64,000 bases of DNA, taken from contig NZ_AUHG01000010.1 in NCBI RefSeq assembly GCF_000423065.1, positions 248,001-312,000 on the forward strand, written 5' to 3'. The notes under the pieces were generated by a model that was not told the DNA's origin, did no database searches, and saw only the letters and a program-made list of their open reading frames with translations. Positions 43,675 to 59,159 of this stretch are shown here, piece by piece. How positions within the stretch are numbered: position 1 is the first letter of the stretch; each line of letters starts with the position of its first letter. Both the position numbers and the translations under genes were made by a program. This DNA comes from Christiangramia echinicola DSM 19838 (GTDB lineage Bacteria; Bacteroidota; Bacteroidia; Flavobacteriales; Flavobacteriaceae).

Positions 43675-45261
43675 TTAACTTTTGGAAACCTTAAGTTTCA
43701 TGCCCGGTTTAAGACTATTTGTGTTCATATCATTCCATGACCGCAAATTTTGTACCGAAACTCCAGGGAATTTTTTTGAAATACTCCATAGAGAGTCTCC
43801 CTGCTTCACTGTATAGATCCTTGAATCTGAACCTTTACTGGACCCGGAAGAGGATGTACTGGAAACTACATCCACTGGTTTACTAGGGTAAATGGTAAGA
43901 TATTGGCCAACTCGAATATTATTCCCTCGCATATTATTCCATCTCCTAAGGCTGCTAACACCAACTCCATATCGCTCTGCAATCTTGCCTAGATAATCAC
44001 CCCTTTTAACCTTATACCTAATACGGTCTTTGGTTTCTACGTATTTTGGAAGTTCTTTTTTCTCTTCAACTATCTGGTTTTCGGCAAAATCGTAAATAGC
44101 ACTTTCGTTGCTCACGAATTTACCAGATGCAGGCTTAGGAAGCCTTAGACTGTACTTTTCATCTTCAACGAATGGGATGATATCTAATTTAAAAGCCGGA
44201 TTAAGAAATTGAAGCATTTCCTTTTCCACGCCAGTTACCTTAGAGATCTGATCGAAAGTAAGTAATTGTTTAACCTGAATAGTATCTGTTTCAAAATAGA
44301 CTACATCAGGATTTTTTGGTTGAAAATTATGCTCATCTGCATATTCAAAAAGATATAAAGTTGCCAGGAATGCAGGCACATAACCTGCTGTTTCACGTGG
44401 AAGATATCTTCTTAAATGCCAGTAATCATTAGAACCACCACTTCTTCTAATGGCTTTGGAAACATTTCCAGGACCTGAATTATATGATGCCAAAACAAGG
44501 TCCCAATCTCCAAAAACTTTATATAAGCTCGCTAAATATTGTGCTGCAGCCTCGGTAGATCTCTCCGGGTCCATACGTTCATCTACATAAGAACTTACAT
44601 CCAGACCGTGCATTTTACCGGTTGTGAACATAAATTGCCACAATCCAGTTGCGCCTACACGAGATTTAGCTTTAGGATTTAAAGCCGATTCTACGATAGC
44701 AAGATATTTTATCTCTAACGGAATATCATATTTATCCAGTTCCTGCTCGAACATTGGGAAATAATAGCTACTAAGAGCCATTAATCGCTCCATCCCTTGC
44801 TTATTTCTCTTTAAATAAGACTTTATAACACTTTCAAGAATGGGATTATATTCAACATTAAATGGAGTCCGGGCATTCAATTTTGCAAGACGTGACTTAA
44901 GAGTGTCTGTAGGAAGCTCTTTATAGACAACATCTTCATAATCCTGCTCCTGAATACTTTTCTGCATTTCCTCGAACAGGTCTGAATTTGTTAGCTCAAG
45001 TTTCCATAATGAATCTAATGTTTTAGCCTGTGGAAGATCCTCCAATTTCACTTTAGAAGAATCTCTTATCGCTGCAGAAATTGGCAATTTATCTCTGAAT
45101 TCTGGATCTGGTTTGGCAAGTTTTATTTCGGTGTCGTCACTTTTTTGAAATATCTGAACCCTGAAATTCGCTTTTTCAACCCGCTCATTTTCCTTTTTCT
45201 GCTGAGCCAGGGTCGACATTCCGGCAAGCAGTAACAACATTAAATATCTTCGCTTCAGCAT
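43675..45261 (-). CDS. Membrane-bound lytic murein transglycosylase with two LysM domains (MltD-like)
   Basis: This 528-residue protein has an N-terminal signal peptide (about 1-19). The transglycosylase domain (about 150-310) has the catalytic glutamate in AIVESALNPKAKSRVGATGL and YNSGPGNVSKAIRR. Two C-terminal LysM peptidoglycan-binding domains follow (IRYKVKRGDYLGKIAERYGV and IYTVKQGDSLWSISKKFPG). It cleaves glycan strands to 1,6-anhydro products in the periplasm. Forty-nine bases separate it from pgk upstream, so part of its transcription may come from the pgk promoter. Confidence 0.93.
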   Translation of the reverse strand: MLKRRYLMLLLLAGMSTLAQQKKENERVEKANFRVQIFQKSDDTEIKLAKPDPEFRDKLPISAAIRDSSKVKLEDLPQAKTLDSLWKLELTNSDLFEEMQKSIQEQDYEDVVYKELPTDTLKSRLAKLNARTPFNVEYNPILESVIKSYLKRNKQGMERLMALSSYYFPMFEQELDKYDIPLEIKYLAIVESALNPKAKSRVGATGLWQFMFTTGKMHGLDVSSYVDERMDPERSTEAAAQYLASLYKVFGDWDLVLASYNSGPGNVSKAIRRSGGSNDYWHLRRYLPRETAGYVPAFLATLYLFEYADEHNFQPKNPDVVYFETDTIQVKQLLTFDQISKVTGVEKEMLQFLNPAFKLDIIPFVEDEKYSLRLPKPASGKFVSNESAIYDFAENQIVEEKKELPKYVETKDRIRYKVKRGDYLGKIAERYGVGVSSLRRWNNMRGNNIRVGQYLTIYPSKPVDVVSSTSSSGSSKGSDSRIYTVKQGDSLWSISKKFPGVSVQNLRSWNDMNTNSLKPGMKLKVSKS

Positions 45262-48751: not shown

Positions 48752-48770
48752 AATTTTTCGTTTTGTGTGG

Positions 48771-48778
48771 CAAATGTA
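48771..48778 (-). promoter_or_regulatory. -7 box of the OmpH-like gene
   Basis: TACATTTG on the minus strand exactly matches TAnnTTTG, 19 bases before the ATG. The rest of the 211-base gap up to 48962 is AT-rich, with a short inverted repeat (ACTTATT/AATAAGT at 48859-48875) and no gene. Confidence 0.5.
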
Positions 48779-48962
48779 TAAAAGTATTTTTAGTACAGAA
48801 GCCTAATTTTTAATTGATATAAGGATTTACTATTGAATATATTTTCTATATAATTAATACTTATTAAAAATAAGTGATTTCAAAGCTTAATACAGGCCGT
48901 ATCCAGAATAAGGCTATATAACGGATATCCAAAGCAGCGAAAGTCCTTAAAAACGGCTTAAA

Positions 48963-49781
48963 TTACGTTTTGAGTGATTTTTTAAAGAAATAAGCGATGG
49001 AAGAATACTCACCAGAATTTCTGGCCTTGATATTCGAAACTAATCCGCGATAAAAGGCATTTATAAAATTAGTTTTCGAATTTTTATTTTTTTCACTTAA
49101 AAGGCTCACATAATAAGAATCAAATTTCAATGGCTTCTCATCTATGAGTTTAAAATGATTCTCAGATAGCTTTCTTTCTATTCCTTTTCTGGAAAAATGC
49201 CAAAGGTGTCTAGGTACATCCCAGGCAGCCCAATCTTTTTTATAATAGTTAGCTTCGTAAGAATTATGATTTGGAACAGCAATAATTAAAATTCCGTCGT
49301 CATCTAAAAGTTCATAAAACTCGTTGATCTTTTGTTCAAGGTCTGGTAGATGTTCCAGAACATGCCAAAGGCTTATAACCTTAAATTTCTTATTCTGAAT
49401 TTTAGAAAGATCGTCTTTTAAATTAAGCCCTTTCAAAACTCCCAATTCCCTGGCAGTTTTATTTGGCTCTACTCCTTCTACGTTCCAGAGATAAGATTTC
49501 ATCTTATTAAGAAATTCTCCTGTGCCTGCTCCCACATCTAAAATTGTTCCCTGCTTAAAGTACCTTCTAATCCAACTGGCTTTTTTAGAAAGCATATGGG
49601 ATTTAACCAGCTGATATATTTTATCCTGAAGATTACCCCTGGAATCACTATGGGAAATATAATCTTCGCTTTCGTAATATTTAGAAAGATCTAATGGAAC
49701 GGGATCTGTTCTTAGAATACCATCTTCGTATTTCAAAATTTGAAATTCCTCCCCACTAACCAAATGATCTTTACAAACCAT
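48963..49781 (-). CDS. SAM-dependent class I methyltransferase
   Basis: This 272-residue protein has SAM motif I TILDVGAGTGEFL and SLWHVLEHLPDLEQKI with ILIIAVPNHNS (motif post-II/III). DHLVSGEEFQILKYED at the N-terminus is the lead-in typical of this family, often found with surface glycan or lipid methylation; the substrate is unknown. The frame stays open to a GTG at 49853, but that codon lies inside a parS palindrome and homologues begin near KDHLVSGE, so I prefer the ATG at 49781. Confidence 0.85.
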   Translation of the reverse strand: MVCKDHLVSGEEFQILKYEDGILRTDPVPLDLSKYYESEDYISHSDSRGNLQDKIYQLVKSHMLSKKASWIRRYFKQGTILDVGAGTGEFLNKMKSYLWNVEGVEPNKTARELGVLKGLNLKDDLSKIQNKKFKVISLWHVLEHLPDLEQKINEFYELLDDDGILIIAVPNHNSYEANYYKKDWAAWDVPRHLWHFSRKGIERKLSENHFKLIDEKPLKFDSYYVSLLSEKNKNSKTNFINAFYRGLVSNIKARNSGEYSSIAYFFKKSLKT

Positions 49782-49845
49782 TTCAGGATCATTTTCAATT
49801 TTAGAATCGTATTTATTTACAGTTGAAATCAAAAATAAATTGCTA

Positions 49846-49861
49846 TGTTCCACGTGGAACA
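49846..49861. other. parS-type centromere site, left of mnmG
   Basis: TGTTCCACGTGGAACA is a perfect 16-base palindrome. It equals the GC-variant of the conserved ParB-binding parS site (established family: TGTTNCACGTGAAACA and relatives). It lies ten bases past the mnmG stop, in the mnmG-methyltransferase gap. Confidence 0.88.
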
Positions 49862-49870
49862 GTGATATAA

Positions 49871-51742
49871 TTATCTACCCATATAAACCAACAATACCGA
49901 AATATCATTTGGACTAACTCCACTGATTCTAGATGCCTGCGAAATGGTTGCCGGCTGAACTTTTTTCAGTTTCTCTCTTGCCTCGTAAGACATAGATTTT
50001 ATTTTAGAGTAATCGAAGTTATTCGGAATACGAATATTCTCTAAACGATTTAATTTATCAGCATTATTCTTTTCCTTTTCTATGTATCCGGAATATTTAA
50101 CTTGAATTTCGGTCTGTTCTATCATTTCTTCATCCAGATCATTTTCTGAAATAAACTCCTCTACCCCACTGAAATTTTTTACATCTTCCATGGTGATCTG
50201 AGGTCTTGAAAAAACTTTAAAAACTTTATCGCTTTGTTTCATAGGAGAAGATTTTCTCTTCTCTAAAACAGGATTTGCTTCTTCGGGAACTACACTAAGA
50301 TCTTTCAGAAACTGAACGAATTTAAAAGATTTCTCTTTTTTATCTTCCATCTTCCTCATTCGATCTTCAGAAGCCAGACCAATATTATAGGATTTTTCAG
50401 TTAACCTGAAATCGGCATTATCCTGTCTTAACAATGTCCTGTATTCGGCACGCGAAGTAAACATTCTATATGGCTCTTCTGTACCTTTTGTAATAAGATC
50501 ATCTATAAGAACACCAATATAAGCCTCATTACGTTTAAGTATAAATTCATCCTTCTCCTGAACTTTTAAAGCAGCATTTATTCCCGCCATCATTCCCTGG
50601 CAAGCGGCTTCTTCATATCCAGTGGTTCCATTAATCTGTCCCGCAAAATATAAACCTTCAACCAGTTTAGTTTCGAGTGTATGCTTTAATTGTGTTGGCG
50701 GGAAATAATCATATTCGATAGCATAACCAGGACGGAAAAATTTTACATTCTCGAATCCTGCTACAGAACTCAGTGCTTTAAATTGAACATCTTCTGGTAA
50801 CGATGTTGAGAATCCATTTACATAAACCTCTACAGTATTCCAGCCTTCTGGTTCAACAAAAAGTTGATGTCTATCCTTATCTGCAAAACGATTGATTTTA
50901 TCCTCTATAGAGGGACAATATCGTGGACCAATACTTTTTATTCTACCATTAAACATTGGCGACCTATCAAAACCTTCCTTCAATATTTCATGAACCTCAT
51001 TAGAGGTGTAGGTCATATGACAGGCACGTTGTTTACTTAAAGGTTTTGTTTCGTCTGAATAGGAAAATTTACCAGGTATATCATCTCCAGGTTGCTCAAC
51101 CATTTTAGAATAATCCAGGGATCTTCCATCCACTCTTGGAGGAGTTCCGGTTTTCATTCTTCCCGCTTCAAAACCAGCTTCGATAAGATCTTTTGTAATT
51201 CCAGTTGCGGCTCTTTCTCCTGCTCTACCTCCTCCAAATTGTTTATCTCCTATATGGATCAATCCGTTTAGAAAAGTACCATTAGTACAAACCACAGAAT
51301 TAGCCATAATTTCTAAACCTAAAGAAGTTCTAACTCCTACAACTTTGTCATTTTTTATAATTAGACCGGCAACCATTTCCTGGTAAAAATCCAGATTCGG
51401 TGTTTGTTCCAGTTTTATTCTCCAGTCCTCTGCAAACCTCATTCGGTCACTTTGAACTCTAGGACTCCACATTGCAGGTCCTTTAGATTTATTCAGCATT
51501 TTGAATTGGATGGCGCTGGTATCGCTTACAATACCACTATAACCTCCCATCGCATCGATCTCCCTAACAATTTGCCCTTTGGCAATACCACCCATTGCGG
51601 GATTGCAACTCATTTGAGCAATGTTTTGAAGATTCATGGTAATAAGAAGGGTTTTGCTACCCATATTTGCGGCTGCAGCTGCTGCCTCACTTCCGGCATG
51701 CCCCGCTCCAACAACAATAACATCATACTGCTTTTCGAACAT
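49871..51742 (-). CDS. mnmG: tRNA uridine-5-carboxymethylaminomethyl modification enzyme MnmG (GidA)
   Basis: This FAD enzyme works with MnmE to modify U34 of tRNAs. It has 623 residues. The FAD motif VGAGHAGSEAAAAAA lies at about 11-25. The conserved CNPAMGGIAKGQIVREIDA, GLYFAGQINGTTGYEEAACQ and a C-terminal helical tail (EAREKLKKVQPATISQASRI) are diagnostic. The gene is flanked by two perfect parS palindromes. In many bacteria gidA sits near oriC beside rsmG, parA and parB, but none of those is here. Confidence 0.98.
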   Translation of the reverse strand: MFEKQYDVIVVGAGHAGSEAAAAAANMGSKTLLITMNLQNIAQMSCNPAMGGIAKGQIVREIDAMGGYSGIVSDTSAIQFKMLNKSKGPAMWSPRVQSDRMRFAEDWRIKLEQTPNLDFYQEMVAGLIIKNDKVVGVRTSLGLEIMANSVVCTNGTFLNGLIHIGDKQFGGGRAGERAATGITKDLIEAGFEAGRMKTGTPPRVDGRSLDYSKMVEQPGDDIPGKFSYSDETKPLSKQRACHMTYTSNEVHEILKEGFDRSPMFNGRIKSIGPRYCPSIEDKINRFADKDRHQLFVEPEGWNTVEVYVNGFSTSLPEDVQFKALSSVAGFENVKFFRPGYAIEYDYFPPTQLKHTLETKLVEGLYFAGQINGTTGYEEAACQGMMAGINAALKVQEKDEFILKRNEAYIGVLIDDLITKGTEEPYRMFTSRAEYRTLLRQDNADFRLTEKSYNIGLASEDRMRKMEDKKEKSFKFVQFLKDLSVVPEEANPVLEKRKSSPMKQSDKVFKVFSRPQITMEDVKNFSGVEEFISENDLDEEMIEQTEIQVKYSGYIEKEKNNADKLNRLENIRIPNNFDYSKIKSMSYEAREKLKKVQPATISQASRISGVSPNDISVLLVYMGR

Positions 51743-51761
51743 ATCCTGATCTAATTTTTAG

Positions 51762-52193
51762 CTATTGTTCCACGTGGAACAATTTCATTTTTTCTTCTTC
51801 CTTGCGTCGCATTAACTCTTGATCCCTTTCAGATTTATCCTTATAACCACAAAAATGCAACACCCCGTGTATCACTACACGTTTTAATTCTTCCATAAAA
51901 TCTACGTTGAAATTTGAGGAATTCTCCTCCACTCTATCGGTGCTTATAAATATGTCACCGTGTAAAGTATTACCTATAGAATTATCGAAACTTATAATAT
52001 CGGTATAGGTGTCATGTGAAAGATATTTTACATTAATATCATGGAGATACTCATCGTCACAAAAAATAAAGTTGATATCACCAACATACTTATTTTCTGA
52101 TTCTATTACCTGATCCACCCAATTGCGAAAATCATTTTCCTTTTGAAGGACAAAGTCGTTTTCACTGAAAAAATTAATTTCTCCCTTTTCCAA
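51762..52193 (-). CDS. ybeY: rRNA maturation RNase YbeY
   Basis: This 143-residue metalloprotein is involved in 16S rRNA 3'-end maturation and ribosome quality control. The zinc-site segment reads HGVLHFCGYKDKSERD, with His109 and His113. The canonical third histidine is replaced by Asp119, a variation I recall from other Bacteroidota. The last codons, which encode KLFHVEQ, are formed by a parS palindrome. The start is a TTG at 52193, overlapping the DUF4175 gene by 20 bases; no in-frame ATG precedes it. Confidence 0.92.
   Translation of the reverse strand: MEKGEINFFSENDFVLQKENDFRNWVDQVIESENKYVGDINFIFCDDEYLHDINVKYLSHDTYTDIISFDNSIGNTLHGDIFISTDRVEENSSNFNVDFMEELKRVVIHGVLHFCGYKDKSERDQELMRRKEEEKMKLFHVEQ
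51764..51783. other. parS-type centromere site, right of mnmG, inside the ybeY 3' end
   Basis: ATTGTTCCACGTGGAACAAT is a perfect 20-base palindrome containing the same 16-base core as the left site. It includes the last ybeY codons and stop, and lies 21 bases upstream of the mnmG start. The two cores are 1,920 bases apart. Confidence 0.9.
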
Positions 52194-55419: not shown

Positions 55420-55509
55420 TTTCAATGCAATGTTTCCTTAAAAATACAATAAAAATTATTCTTATTTCAGATGAGTCCTACTGGGTTTAGGATTGGATTA
55501 ATAAGGTTG

Positions 55510-55517
55510 TATCTTTG
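55510..55517 (+). promoter_or_regulatory. gltX promoter -7 box
   Basis: TATCTTTG exactly matches TAnnTTTG, 20 bases before the gltX ATG. TTTA, one base from TTTG, lies 20 bases upstream of the box. Confidence 0.55.
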
Positions 55518-55537
55518 CCCTCAAAAATCAGAAAAAT

Positions 55538-57055
55538 ATGTCTTCTAAAGTAAGAGTAAGATTTGCTCCCAGCCCTACCGGACCATTACATATTGGTGGT
55601 GTAAGAACAGCCTTATATAATTATTTATTTGCGAAAAAGCACGGTGGTGATTTTGTATTGAGAATTGAAGATACAGATCAAAACCGTTATGTTGAAGGAG
55701 CTGAAGATTATATTATAGAATCTCTTAACTGGTGTGGAATTCCGTTTGATGAAGGCCCGGGAAAAGAGAAAGGATTTGGCCCGTACAGGCAAAGTGAACG
55801 TAAGGATAAATATAGAGCCTACGCTGAAAAGCTGATAGAATCTGGCAATGCATACTATGCTTTTGATACTTCAGATGAGCTTGACGCGCATAGAAAAGAT
55901 CATGAAGAAAAAGGTAAAACTTTTATCTATAACTGGCATAATCGCGAAAAATTAAAGAATTCCATATCGCTTTCTCAGGATGAAGTTCAGCAGAAATTAG
56001 AAAATGATGAGGACTATGTGATCAGGTTCAAATCGCCAAAAGATGAAATTTTACATCTAAAAGATGTGATTCGTGGAGATATGGAGATTGATACGAATAT
56101 CCTTGATGATAAAGTGCTTTTTAAGAGTGACGGGATGCCAACCTATCATTTAGCAAATATTGTAGATGATCATCTAATGGAAATCACTCATGTAATTCGC
56201 GGGGAAGAATGGTTGCCTTCTTTAGCCTTACATTATATGCTTTACAGAGCTTTTGGATGGAGTGCTCCAGAATTTGCTCACCTTCCATTGATCTTGAAAC
56301 CACAGGGTAAAGGGAAATTAAGTAAACGTGATGGCGAAAAAATGGGATTCCCTGTTTTTCCGTTAGAATGGAAAGATCCAGAGACAGATGATATCTCTGC
56401 AGGTTACCGCGAGGAAGGCTATTTCCCGGAGGCTGTAGTAAATATGCTGGCATTCTTAGGATGGAACCCAGGGACAGAGCAGGAATTCTTTAAATTAGAA
56501 GAATTGACCACAGCCTTTGAACTGGAACGAGTTCATAAAGGTGGAGCTAAATTTGATCCAGAGAAAACAAAATGGTTCCAGCAACATTATATGCAGGAAG
56601 CTGATAACGATTTTCTGGCAGATGAATTTCAAATACAGCTGGAGAAAAAAGAGATTACAGCAGAAAAAGAATATATAAAGAAGGTGGTTGCCCTTATCAA
56701 AGAAAGAACAGTCTTTGCTGAAGATTTCTGGGATCAGGGATATTTCTTCTTTATTGCCCCTACTTCATTTGATCCTAAAGATTCAAAGAAAGCCTGGAAA
56801 GAAGATACGGGTGAATTAATGACCGAACTTAAAGGATTCCTGAATTCTGTTGATAATTTTGAAGCAGAAAGTCTTCAGGAAACGGTAAAAGGCTGGATTA
56901 AAAGTAAGGAAATAGGCTTTGGAAAGGTAATGATGCCTTTACGTGTAGCGCTCGTTGGAGCTTTACAGGGTCCAGATCTTTATAAGATTGCTGAATTTAT
57001 AGGAAAAGAGGAAACTCTGAAAAGAATTCAAAAAGCAGTAGATACTCTTAAGTAG
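55538..57055 (+). CDS. gltX: Glutamate--tRNA ligase
   Basis: This is a class I synthetase of 505 residues. RFAPSPTGPLHIGGVRTALY near the N-terminus contains the HIGH-type motif, and GKGKLSKRDGEKMG contains the KMSKS-type motif. The C-terminal anticodon-binding domain ends in LYKIAEFIGKEETLKRIQKA. glnS is also present in the window, so glutamine tRNA is charged directly and GltX need not be non-discriminating. Monocistronic, with a terminator. Confidence 0.98.
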   Translation: MSSKVRVRFAPSPTGPLHIGGVRTALYNYLFAKKHGGDFVLRIEDTDQNRYVEGAEDYIIESLNWCGIPFDEGPGKEKGFGPYRQSERKDKYRAYAEKLIESGNAYYAFDTSDELDAHRKDHEEKGKTFIYNWHNREKLKNSISLSQDEVQQKLENDEDYVIRFKSPKDEILHLKDVIRGDMEIDTNILDDKVLFKSDGMPTYHLANIVDDHLMEITHVIRGEEWLPSLALHYMLYRAFGWSAPEFAHLPLILKPQGKGKLSKRDGEKMGFPVFPLEWKDPETDDISAGYREEGYFPEAVVNMLAFLGWNPGTEQEFFKLEELTTAFELERVHKGGAKFDPEKTKWFQQHYMQEADNDFLADEFQIQLEKKEITAEKEYIKKVVALIKERTVFAEDFWDQGYFFFIAPTSFDPKDSKKAWKEDTGELMTELKGFLNSVDNFEAESLQETVKGWIKSKEIGFGKVMMPLRVALVGALQGPDLYKIAEFIGKEETLKRIQKAVDTLK

Positions 57056-57078
57056 CTATCAAAAAAATATAAAGTTAC

Positions 57079-57113
57079 AACCGGTTTTGAATTATTTTAA
57101 AGCCGGTTTTTTT
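57079..57113 (+). terminator. Terminator after gltX
   Basis: AACCGG (57079-57084) pairs with CCGGTT (57103-57108), extended by TTT/AAA pairs with one bulge, followed by a T-run. Confidence 0.75.
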
Positions 57114-57174
57114 ATTTATAAGGATTCACCCTTTTATTCTTAAATTGAAGCATTCTTAATTTAATATTTAATAC

Positions 57175-58134
57175 ATGCTCAATTTAGTAATTATACCGGT
57201 TTTAGCGATTATAGCTCTTCTGGTTATTGTCTCTGGAATTTTCATAGTTAGGCAACAAAGCTCCGCAGTTGTAGAACGCTTCGGTAAATTCACCAGTATT
57301 AGAAACTCTGGTCTTCAATTAAAAATACCAATAATAGACCAGGTTGCTGGAAGAATTAATCTAAAGGTACAACAGTTGGATGTTTTGGTTGAAACTAAGA
57401 CCAAAGACAATGTTTTTGTCAAACTTAAGATCTCAGTTCAATTCCAGGTTCGTAGAGATAATGTATACGACGCCTTTTACAAGCTTGAAAGCCCTCATGA
57501 CCAGATAACTGCTTATGTATTTGACGTTGTGCGCGCAGAAGTACCTAAAATGAAGTTAGATGATGTATTTGAACGTAAAGATGACATCGCAATCGCGGTA
57601 AACCGTGAATTGAATGAAGCAATGCAGTCTTATGGTTATGATATCATTAAAACCCTGGTTACAGATATTGATCCGGACGTTCAGGTAAAAGCTGCGATGA
57701 ATCGTATAAATGCCGCTGAACGAGAAAAGGTAGCTGCAGAATATGATGCAGAAGCAGACAGGATTAAGATTGTGGCAAAAGCAAGGGCTGAAGCCGAAAG
57801 CAAAAGATTACAGGGACAGGGAATTGCAGACCAGAGAAGAGAAATTGCCCGTGGACTGGAAGAAAGTGTAGATGTTCTTAACAATGTTGGTATTAATTCG
57901 CAGGAAGCATCTGCTTTGATCGTGGTAACTCAGCATTATGATACTTTACAGGCTATTGGAGAAGAAACGAATAGTAACTTGATATTACTACCAAATTCTC
58001 CACAGGCTGGCAGCGATATGCTGAATAATATGGTTGCTTCCTTTACCGCTTCTAACCAGATTGGTGAAGCAATGAAAGAACAGAACCGAAAACAAGCTGA
58101 TAAAATAAAAGGTAAATCAAATAAAGATGAATAG
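57175..58134 (+). CDS. SPFH/Band 7 family membrane protein (stomatin-like)
   Basis: This 319-residue protein has one N-terminal membrane helix (about 3-24; LVIIPVLAIIALLVIVSGIF) and a Band 7 domain (about 25-200; QQSSAVVERFGKFTSIRNSG, then DVVRAEVPKMKLDDVFERKD). An alanine-rich coiled helix (REKVAAEYDAEADRIKIVAK) drives oligomerisation. These proteins form ring-like membrane microdomains and often control membrane proteases. No NfeD-type partner gene is adjacent. A strong terminator follows. Confidence 0.93.
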   Translation: MLNLVIIPVLAIIALLVIVSGIFIVRQQSSAVVERFGKFTSIRNSGLQLKIPIIDQVAGRINLKVQQLDVLVETKTKDNVFVKLKISVQFQVRRDNVYDAFYKLESPHDQITAYVFDVVRAEVPKMKLDDVFERKDDIAIAVNRELNEAMQSYGYDIIKTLVTDIDPDVQVKAAMNRINAAEREKVAAEYDAEADRIKIVAKARAEAESKRLQGQGIADQRREIARGLEESVDVLNNVGINSQEASALIVVTQHYDTLQAIGEETNSNLILLPNSPQAGSDMLNNMVASFTASNQIGEAMKEQNRKQADKIKGKSNKDE

Positions 58135-58137
58135 AAA

Positions 58138-58165
58138 AAAGCCCCAATCGGGGCTTTGATTTTTT
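58138..58165. terminator. Bidirectional terminator between the SPFH and DUF6327 genes
   Basis: AAAGCCCC (58138-58145) pairs with GGGGCTTT (58150-58157) around AATC. An A-run precedes it and a T-run follows. Confidence 0.88.
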
Positions 58166-58185
58166 TTAAGTGATAGTATGAATGA

Positions 58186-58419
58186 TTAACTTTTTGTAGA
58201 AGCAACTACTTTTTTAACCCCTATTATTTTAGAAACAGCTTTAAGCACCAATGCTTTTTGCATAATAGAACCTATAATACTGCCAGCCAGAGAAACCGGA
58301 GAAAGACTTTGTTTAGTTTGATCTATACTTAATTTGATCTCCTCCTTATCTATTTCCGTCTGAAGTTTAAGAATCTTAAGATCCTTATCTATTTCTTCAA
58401 AAGATGAATATATTCTCAT
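58186..58419 (-). CDS. DUF6327-like small protein
   Basis: This 77-residue protein begins MRIYSSFEEIDKDLKILKLQ. It has a charged N-terminal helix and a more hydrophobic C-terminal half (SLAGSIIGSIMQKALVLKAV). I recall this family as DUF6327, found after YtxH and holin-like genes in flavobacteria. Function unknown. It overlaps the previous stop by one base, so the three genes are coupled. Confidence 0.72.
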   Translation of the reverse strand: MRIYSSFEEIDKDLKILKLQTEIDKEEIKLSIDQTKQSLSPVSLAGSIIGSIMQKALVLKAVSKIIGVKKVVASTKS

Positions 58420-58778
58420 TAGTCATTTTTATCGTCAAATACAGCCTTTGAGAACTTTCTCAGTACAAGCTTCTCAATTGGTTCCTTTCCAAATATAAAA
58501 ATCAGGACAAAAACTATTAAATAGAATCCACCTATAATAAAATATCCAGAACTTGGAACTCCAATAGCTTCACTAATCACTATCGCAAGGGCAAAAGAAA
58601 GCATAACGCCAGCTGTACTCAATAAAAAACCCATCACCAGAAAACGAACTAAGGAGGTTGCCCCCTTCATTCCCTGTTTAAAGGCTTTTAGTTTATAATA
58701 TTCAGAATTGCTGTGTAAAAACGACTGAACATTATTATTTAGATCATGTACACTGTTGGATACCTTTTCAAATGCCAT
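58419..58778 (-). CDS. Phage-holin-family membrane protein (Holin-X type)
   Basis: This 119-residue protein has two membrane helices (about 41-65 and 72-95; LVRFLVMGFLLSTAGVMLSF and YFIIGGFYLIVFVLIFIFGK). The layout fits the chromosomal holin superfamily III, which in this context is not a phage lysis gene. It lies six bases after the YtxH gene. A stress or membrane-integrity role is inferred from the gene trio. Confidence 0.8.
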   Translation of the reverse strand: MAFEKVSNSVHDLNNNVQSFLHSNSEYYKLKAFKQGMKGATSLVRFLVMGFLLSTAGVMLSFALAIVISEAIGVPSSGYFIIGGFYLIVFVLIFIFGKEPIEKLVLRKFSKAVFDDKND

Positions 58779-58784
58779 ATAATA

Positions 58785-59159
58785 TTATACTACTGCTTTA
58801 TCTGGAGAATTTCCAGTAGACTTATTTTCTTTGTCTTTCTGCAATTTAGCATTTTGTTTTCTTAATTCCTCAAGTTTAGTTTCCATAGCAGCCAGAATAT
58901 CATCTGCTTTGTGACTTGCAGAAGATAAAGTTTCTTCAAGTCTTACCTCAAAATCCACTCTTGCTTTTTTGGCCTTTTCACTCAAGTTAGAACTTGTTTC
59001 ATGATAACGCTTGTTAAGGTTACCCTGAGCCTTTTGGGCATCACTCTTCAATTTTTTGCGTGTCTTTTCCCCGCTATCTGGAGCATAAAGTAATCCTACT
59101 CCGGCACCTATTGCCGCTCCTGTGATTAATGCCAAAAGTGTATTTCCTGTACTTGCCAT
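58785..59159 (-). CDS. YtxH domain protein
   Basis: This 124-residue protein has an N-terminal membrane helix (LLALITGAAIGAGVGLLYAP, about 6-25) followed by the YtxH signature SGEKTRKKLKSDAQKAQG and a charged coiled coil. YtxH proteins are small stress-associated membrane proteins in many bacteria. It is the first gene of a three-gene operon with an exact promoter box. Confidence 0.9.
   Translation of the reverse strand: MASTGNTLLALITGAAIGAGVGLLYAPDSGEKTRKKLKSDAQKAQGNLNKRYHETSSNLSEKAKKARVDFEVRLEETLSSASHKADDILAAMETKLEELRKQNAKLQKDKENKSTGNSPDKAVV

Follow-up and report, generated by a model that had tools for sequence, protein, structure and literature searches.

Chromosomal ParABS systems and the origin

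Chromosomal ParABS systems, as seen with Bacillus subtilis (Spo0J), Pseudomonas aeruginosa, and Caulobacter, rely on palindromic sites, parS, of the family TGTTTCACGTGAAACA or TGTTCCACGTGGAACA, on ParB proteins possessing canonical domains, and on few sites, which are clustered at the origin of replication. The locus considered here resembles these systems in all of those respects. ParB loading, CTP-gated ParB sliding, and ParA-driven separation are known for this family, in part as covered by PMC8494293. The par operon usually is found within the origin (ori) domain, as stated in PMC7022226. The exact 16-mer that is the subject of this study appears as well in the literature on P. aeruginosa parS.

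Within the Flavobacteriaceae, oriC has been predicted beside mnmG both in Mariniflexile litorale (PMC11278836) and in Algorimicrobium (PMC12843772), with that position agreeing with GC skew, as is also the case here. For Mariniflexile, the position of dnaA disagreed with skew (PMC11278836). A text search of the main texts of those two publications returns no mention of parS, and in one figure legend of PMC11278836 the oriC and ter labels are swapped relative to the text. In a Hi-C study of bacteria from the gut, two Bacteroidetes among them, parS clusters together with GC skew have been used to place ori (PMC10197239), as they are here. Passages of that publication describe use of a parS consensus with 2 mismatches, an ori which is not always at dnaA, and an absence of known condensins from the two Bacteroidetes. 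The system there is one of gut species, and the bracketing of mnmG by parS is absent from the passages describing it.

Already in print, that is, are an oriC near mnmG (two species) and the unreliability of dnaA as an origin marker, and the sites themselves are canonical. What is new is rated here as a layout variant of a known system. No account of parS bracketing mnmG in Bacteroidota, or of a distant parAB, was found among the publications listed in the literature searches, and passages of PMC5771137 (Porphyromonas) offered nothing of use here, though Livny et al. (2007) may already report such sites.

Two palindromes flanking mnmG

The window, i.e., the whole 64,000-nucleotide stretch of Christiangramia echinicola DNA that was analysed, is C1:248001-312000, with C1 being its home contig. 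A scan of the window finds TGTTCCACGTGGAACA at 49846-49861 and again at 51766-51781, approximately 1.9 kb apart and flanking mnmG. The predicted parS site 1 (49846..49861, no strand assigned) is a perfect 16-base palindrome only, found just 3' of the mnmG stop codon, while the predicted parS site 2 (51764..51783, likewise without strand) is a 20-base perfect palindrome which encloses the second 16-mer. An earlier reading of this DNA from sequence only had described two perfect 16-mers, the second within a 20-base palindrome, and both positions are reproduced.

Between the two sites is mnmG itself (gidA; 49871..51742, minus strand), encoding Pfam GIDA and MnmG C-terminal domains, and for which the best matches in named genomes, among the matches listed, are to Christiangramia (Gramella) at 93 to 97 percent identity. 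On the same strand, ybeY (51762..52193; Pfam YbeY) contains site 2 within its 3' codons. Site 2 there supplies the last codons of the gene (..LFHVEQ stop), with the Pfam match stopping earlier, at residue 137 of 143. A SAM-dependent methyltransferase ORF (48963..49853, minus strand; Pfam Methyltransf_23) has a called 5' end which overlaps site 1, that is, the site overlaps the GTG start of this ORF, as called. Read along the minus strand, the order is a DUF4175 protein, ybeY, parS, mnmG, parS, the methyltransferase, and an OmpH-like protein.

In the whole genome (3.51 Mb, 18 contigs) there are two exact copies of TGTTCCACGTGGAACA, versus approximately 0.0005 expected per genome given base composition; for the looser core, GTTNCACGTGNAAC, 0.14 copies are expected. 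The earlier claims that a chance origin is negligible and that these match the parS family both hold up, with the palindrome being of the TGTTNCACGTGNAACA type and present in two exact copies. A genome-wide search for the 16-mer, which had been put forward as a check, indeed yields copies which are few and clustered. Allowing up to 3 mismatches, nine sites are found genome-wide (two exact, three with 2 mismatches, and four with 3) versus four for a reversed-pattern control, and within the window there are 3 matches versus a shuffle mean of 0.18.

The third of those window matches (44389-44404, 2 mismatches) was considered as a further parS and rejected. It encodes the residues YLPRET of an MltD-like lytic transglycosylase, i.e., of a protein possessing SLT and LysM domains. 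The LPRET motif is found in 26 of 80 relatives, using 18 distinct codings, with a parS-like word in 9 of the 26. As the match codes for a motif that is spelled in 18 ways across 26 relatives, it is not taken for parS.

Conservation of the sites among relatives

Eighty named loci were compared. As these are the best 80 of at least 577 confirmed mnmG matches, they represent close relatives. In all 80 the core, GTTNCACGTGNAAC, is present within 600 bp of mnmG on both sides. The strict 16-mer in these same loci is found on both sides in 46, upstream only in 29, downstream only in 3, and on neither side in 2, with the difference between strict and core counts consisting of one or both outer bases. 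The flanks carry approximately 0.25 to 0.38 bits of information per column. Among non-coding words near mnmG, parS words have the top 8-mer count, with 217 occurrences of the top 8-mer near mnmG and 0 elsewhere in the same 80 loci.

Across the family, the 16-mer TGTTNCACGTGNAACA is present in 132 of 149 genomes, and its reversed pattern in none of the 149; as genomes are related, these counts, like the others given here, are not independent. Among 47 family genomes that were compared for location, 72 of 75 sites are within 2 kb of mnmG, and 46 genomes have such a site. Of the 17 family genomes from which the strict 16-mer is absent, four were searched for the core, and three of those had it. 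The fourth, G123, is a single contig with both ParB and DnaA present, which has neither a parS core nor an mnmG match, a joint absence that could represent an assembly gap or a masked gap at the origin.

For 23 near-complete family genomes (22 single-contig plus one of two contigs), the core is found in 22, with 45 of 50 sites within 2 kb of mnmG and with mnmG bracketed in 20. The five core sites away from mnmG belong to G023 (three), G100 (one), and G121 (one), and three of these 23 genomes contain a single copy of the reversed core each. At the class level the core is present in 81 of 90 genomes, versus one reversed-control match in each of 15 of the 90. Comparison by eye of 30 of those 81 class genomes finds a site approximately 1 kb or less from mnmG in 29; the thirtieth, G161, has no mnmG match. 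In two of these 29 genomes a core is seen inside the mnmG coding region (G169 C18:41456 and G219 C1:1086926) in addition to a site beside mnmG.

Location relative to the replication origin

GC skew was taken at four-fold degenerate sites along C1, as the mean of the two gene orientations wherever a stretch has both. Of the 10 stretches up to 312 kb, 9 show a negative value, and all 14 beyond that point are positive. Computed over C1:278-332 kb, per-gene cumulative four-fold skew is lowest at C1:303425-307159, which corresponds to an approximate origin at window 55425-59159 (no strand assigned), with the curve shallow and the resolution approximately 10 kb. The nearer parS site lies 3.6 to 7.4 kb away from this minimum, and another dip is found near C1:315 kb.

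For seven complete relatives, skew was sampled in 20-kb stretches, 15 to 20 of them per genome and spaced by as much as 290 kb, and the skews are weak. Within those limits parS attains the top score as a skew origin in 6 of the 7. The best grid origin in those six genomes is 2 to 263 kb from parS, i.e., within sample spacing. In the seventh, G023, skew is irregular, and the rank of parS within the grid is 0.13. Neither dnaA nor parB reaches the best score in any of the seven, and both score below parS in all of them. The suggestion from sequence only that this locus is near the origin is supported, indirectly and at limited resolution, by its position at the skew switch on C1 and by the top score of parS in 6 of 7 relatives. 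Of the two markers which had been proposed for placing it there, that is, skew and dnaA, it is only skew which does so, with dnaA instead found on another contig.

Gene-strand bias fails to single out parS as origin in these seven genomes. The rank of parS among grid points is 0.39, 0.40, 0.51, 0.71, 0.04, 0.40, and 0.83, and the bias favours both dnaA and parB in G014 (0.08) and parB in G032 (0.04).

The E. coli-type DnaA box has the consensus TTATCCACA. A cluster of E. coli-type boxes was not found near the parS sites. Exact copies of TTATCCACA number 29, scattered over the genome, versus 39 for a reversed control. A loose group of four boxes is present at C1:320226-322470, inside genes and approximately 21 kb from the sites; three of these have one mismatch and the fourth is exact, with no further exact copy across the 102 kb that was scanned. 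An AT-rich intergenic gap following the methyltransferase gene, from window 48752 to about 48962-48990, was considered as a candidate oriC. By eye it carries TTTAAG-like repeats, as do the gaps of several relatives, and between 48752 and 48962 it holds what we take to be a promoter-like block of a familiar type. No DnaA box with fewer than 2 mismatches is found in the window's copy of 48752-48962, with the gap being extractable from 20 of 81 sequences.

A single parAB pair on another contig

The sequence-only reading had noted that parA and parB are not in the window, and the parAB pair is found instead on another contig, C5, along with dnaA. There is a single ParB_N match in the genome (C5:164708) and a single DnaA match (C5:19209). 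The ParB homologue whose existence was to be checked is thus present as one gene with a ParA-type neighbour: its product has ParB_N, HTH_ParB, and ParB_C domains above cut-off (Pfam) and can be aligned (phmmer) with ParB/Spo0J proteins of known structure, with a gene for an AAA_31 ParA-type ATPase immediately upstream. Within the family a ParB match is found in 146 of 149 genomes, the three without one being 64 to 82 percent complete.

With parS on C1 and both parB and dnaA on C5, their separation in this genome is at least approximately 0.36 Mb (parB) and 0.32 Mb (dnaA). Where relatives are assembled as a single contig, both parB and dnaA are 0.8 Mb or more away from parS, in 21 of 21 cases. 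Unlike what is usual for ParABS, where the par operon is within the ori domain (PMC7022226), parB in 21 of 21 is 0.8 to 1.5 Mb from parS, i.e., 21 to 42 percent of the chromosome. Expressed as fractions of the chromosome over these 21 genomes, the parS-parB distance is 0.21 to 0.42 (mean 0.31, sd 0.06) and the parS-dnaA distance is 0.20 to 0.49 (mean 0.36, sd 0.07), while dnaA-parB ranges from 0.02 to 0.45. The first two vary less than does the third (Levene 0.0009 and 0.012, uncorrected for relatedness), and these steadier distances are what one would predict were inversions to occur symmetrically around a parS-located origin. As dnaA is far from parS, dnaA is unusable here as an origin marker.

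ScpA was found in none of 60 family genomes, the present one included, while 9 of 14 control genomes were positive. Smc-ScpAB, which is a usual partner of ParB, thus probably is missing.

Does the bracketing of mnmG matter?

It had been suggested that bracketing of a single gene by two sites may be relevant to ParB spreading. That idea does not fare well, as only 6 of the 29 class genomes compared by eye have mnmG bracketed (G000, G127, G168, G178, G210, and G215), with 21 of the 29 possessing nearby sites on just one side of mnmG, and as the sites of G023 are found apart from mnmG. In G023, mnmG is 278 kb from parS and without any site, while three sites surround the methyltransferase gene, with genes of OmpH-like, LysE-like, and RNase R-like type close by, just as the window has them (gene names in G023 come from reading translations). 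G023 thus separates parS from mnmG, with parS staying with the origin neighbourhood. The bracketing looks incidental, and the reading that fits best is one of two redundant sites on either side of a gene that has long been their neighbour.

Interpretation and alternatives

The two palindromes are, very probably, the chromosomal parS of a ParABS system and mark the region of the replication origin. What they constitute appears to be an ordinary origin-marking centromere of unusual layout, with parAB and dnaA far off in relatives. ParB from the single parAB pair on the other contig would load at these sites as a CTP-dependent sliding clamp and then spread across mnmG and its neighbours, with ParA moving the ParB-loaded region so as to give rise to early separation of sister origins. 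Possession of two sites probably represents redundancy, and mnmG would be a long-standing neighbour rather than a functional partner.

From a different perspective, the palindromes might be viewed as regulatory elements of the ybeY-mnmG-methyltransferase genes, that is, as serving in operator function, processing, or termination without any centromere. In 80 named relatives the sites are found next to mnmG, at gene boundaries or close to them, which is in keeping with this, but a palindrome that lacks a loop makes a poor terminator. The three sites of G023 also remain in their usual neighbourhood despite the departure of a siteless mnmG, and the same 16-mer is found in six publications, several of which concern the parS of P. 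aeruginosa, Burkholderiales, or Bdellovibrio. A regulatory role instead of a centromere consequently is quite improbable. Improbable too, and slightly more so, is that these are true parS but only a secondary cluster, with the main origin and centromere near dnaA or parAB. Here one can point to par operons and most parS being found in the ori domain as a conserved feature, as PMC7022226 has it, to parAB and dnaA being together on C5, and to a gene-strand bias which favours dnaA or parB in 2 of 7 sampled genomes. Against this, the genome has no other exact site, and in 7 of 7 sampled genomes both dnaA and parB are worse than parS as skew origins.

Least credible, indeed scarcely so, is an origin of the palindromes in chance or in protein-coding constraint, i.e., upon the YbeY tail FHVEQ. 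Site 2 is in fact translated. Among the window plus 80 relatives, though, 4 are without a recognisable ybeY motif, and in the 77 scoreable sequences the upstream site falls within ybeY or runs across its end in 30, one of which is the window, but is intergenic, outside ybeY and with no FHVEQ tail, in 47. The approximately 0.0005 exact copies expected per genome and the presence of both sites in 80 of 80 loci argue as well against chance or coding as explanation.

Returning to parS as origin-marking centromere, a broader proposal, which we favour by a modest degree, is that the Flavobacteriaceae possess a ‘split’ centromere system, one in which marking and moving the origin falls to parS alone, with parAB and dnaA kept mid-arm and with ParB functioning without Smc-ScpAB. 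If so, then it would be parS and the mnmG neighbourhood, rather than dnaA, that confer origin identity, and assemblies that are rotated to dnaA would begin at the wrong place. For a large family in which dnaA misleads, parS offers a sequence by which the origin can be marked in practice. The layout also allows one to examine if origin segregation by ParABS depends on Smc loading or on linkage of the operon, and genetically tractable members of the family exist, e.g., Flavobacterium johnsoniae.

Multiplied sites

Seven Aquimarina loci (L027-L030, L032, L035, and L050) have two or three parS upstream of mnmG, approximately 36 to 49 bp apart, together with one further site 337 to 477 bp downstream, and some of the upstream sites have one changed outer base. 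The pattern is one of local multiplication of sites. G181 has twelve core sites, on C24:13203-13809, C28, C40, and C43. Seven of these form one array, with sites 98 to 99 bp apart, which resembles a tandem repeat carrying one parS per unit.
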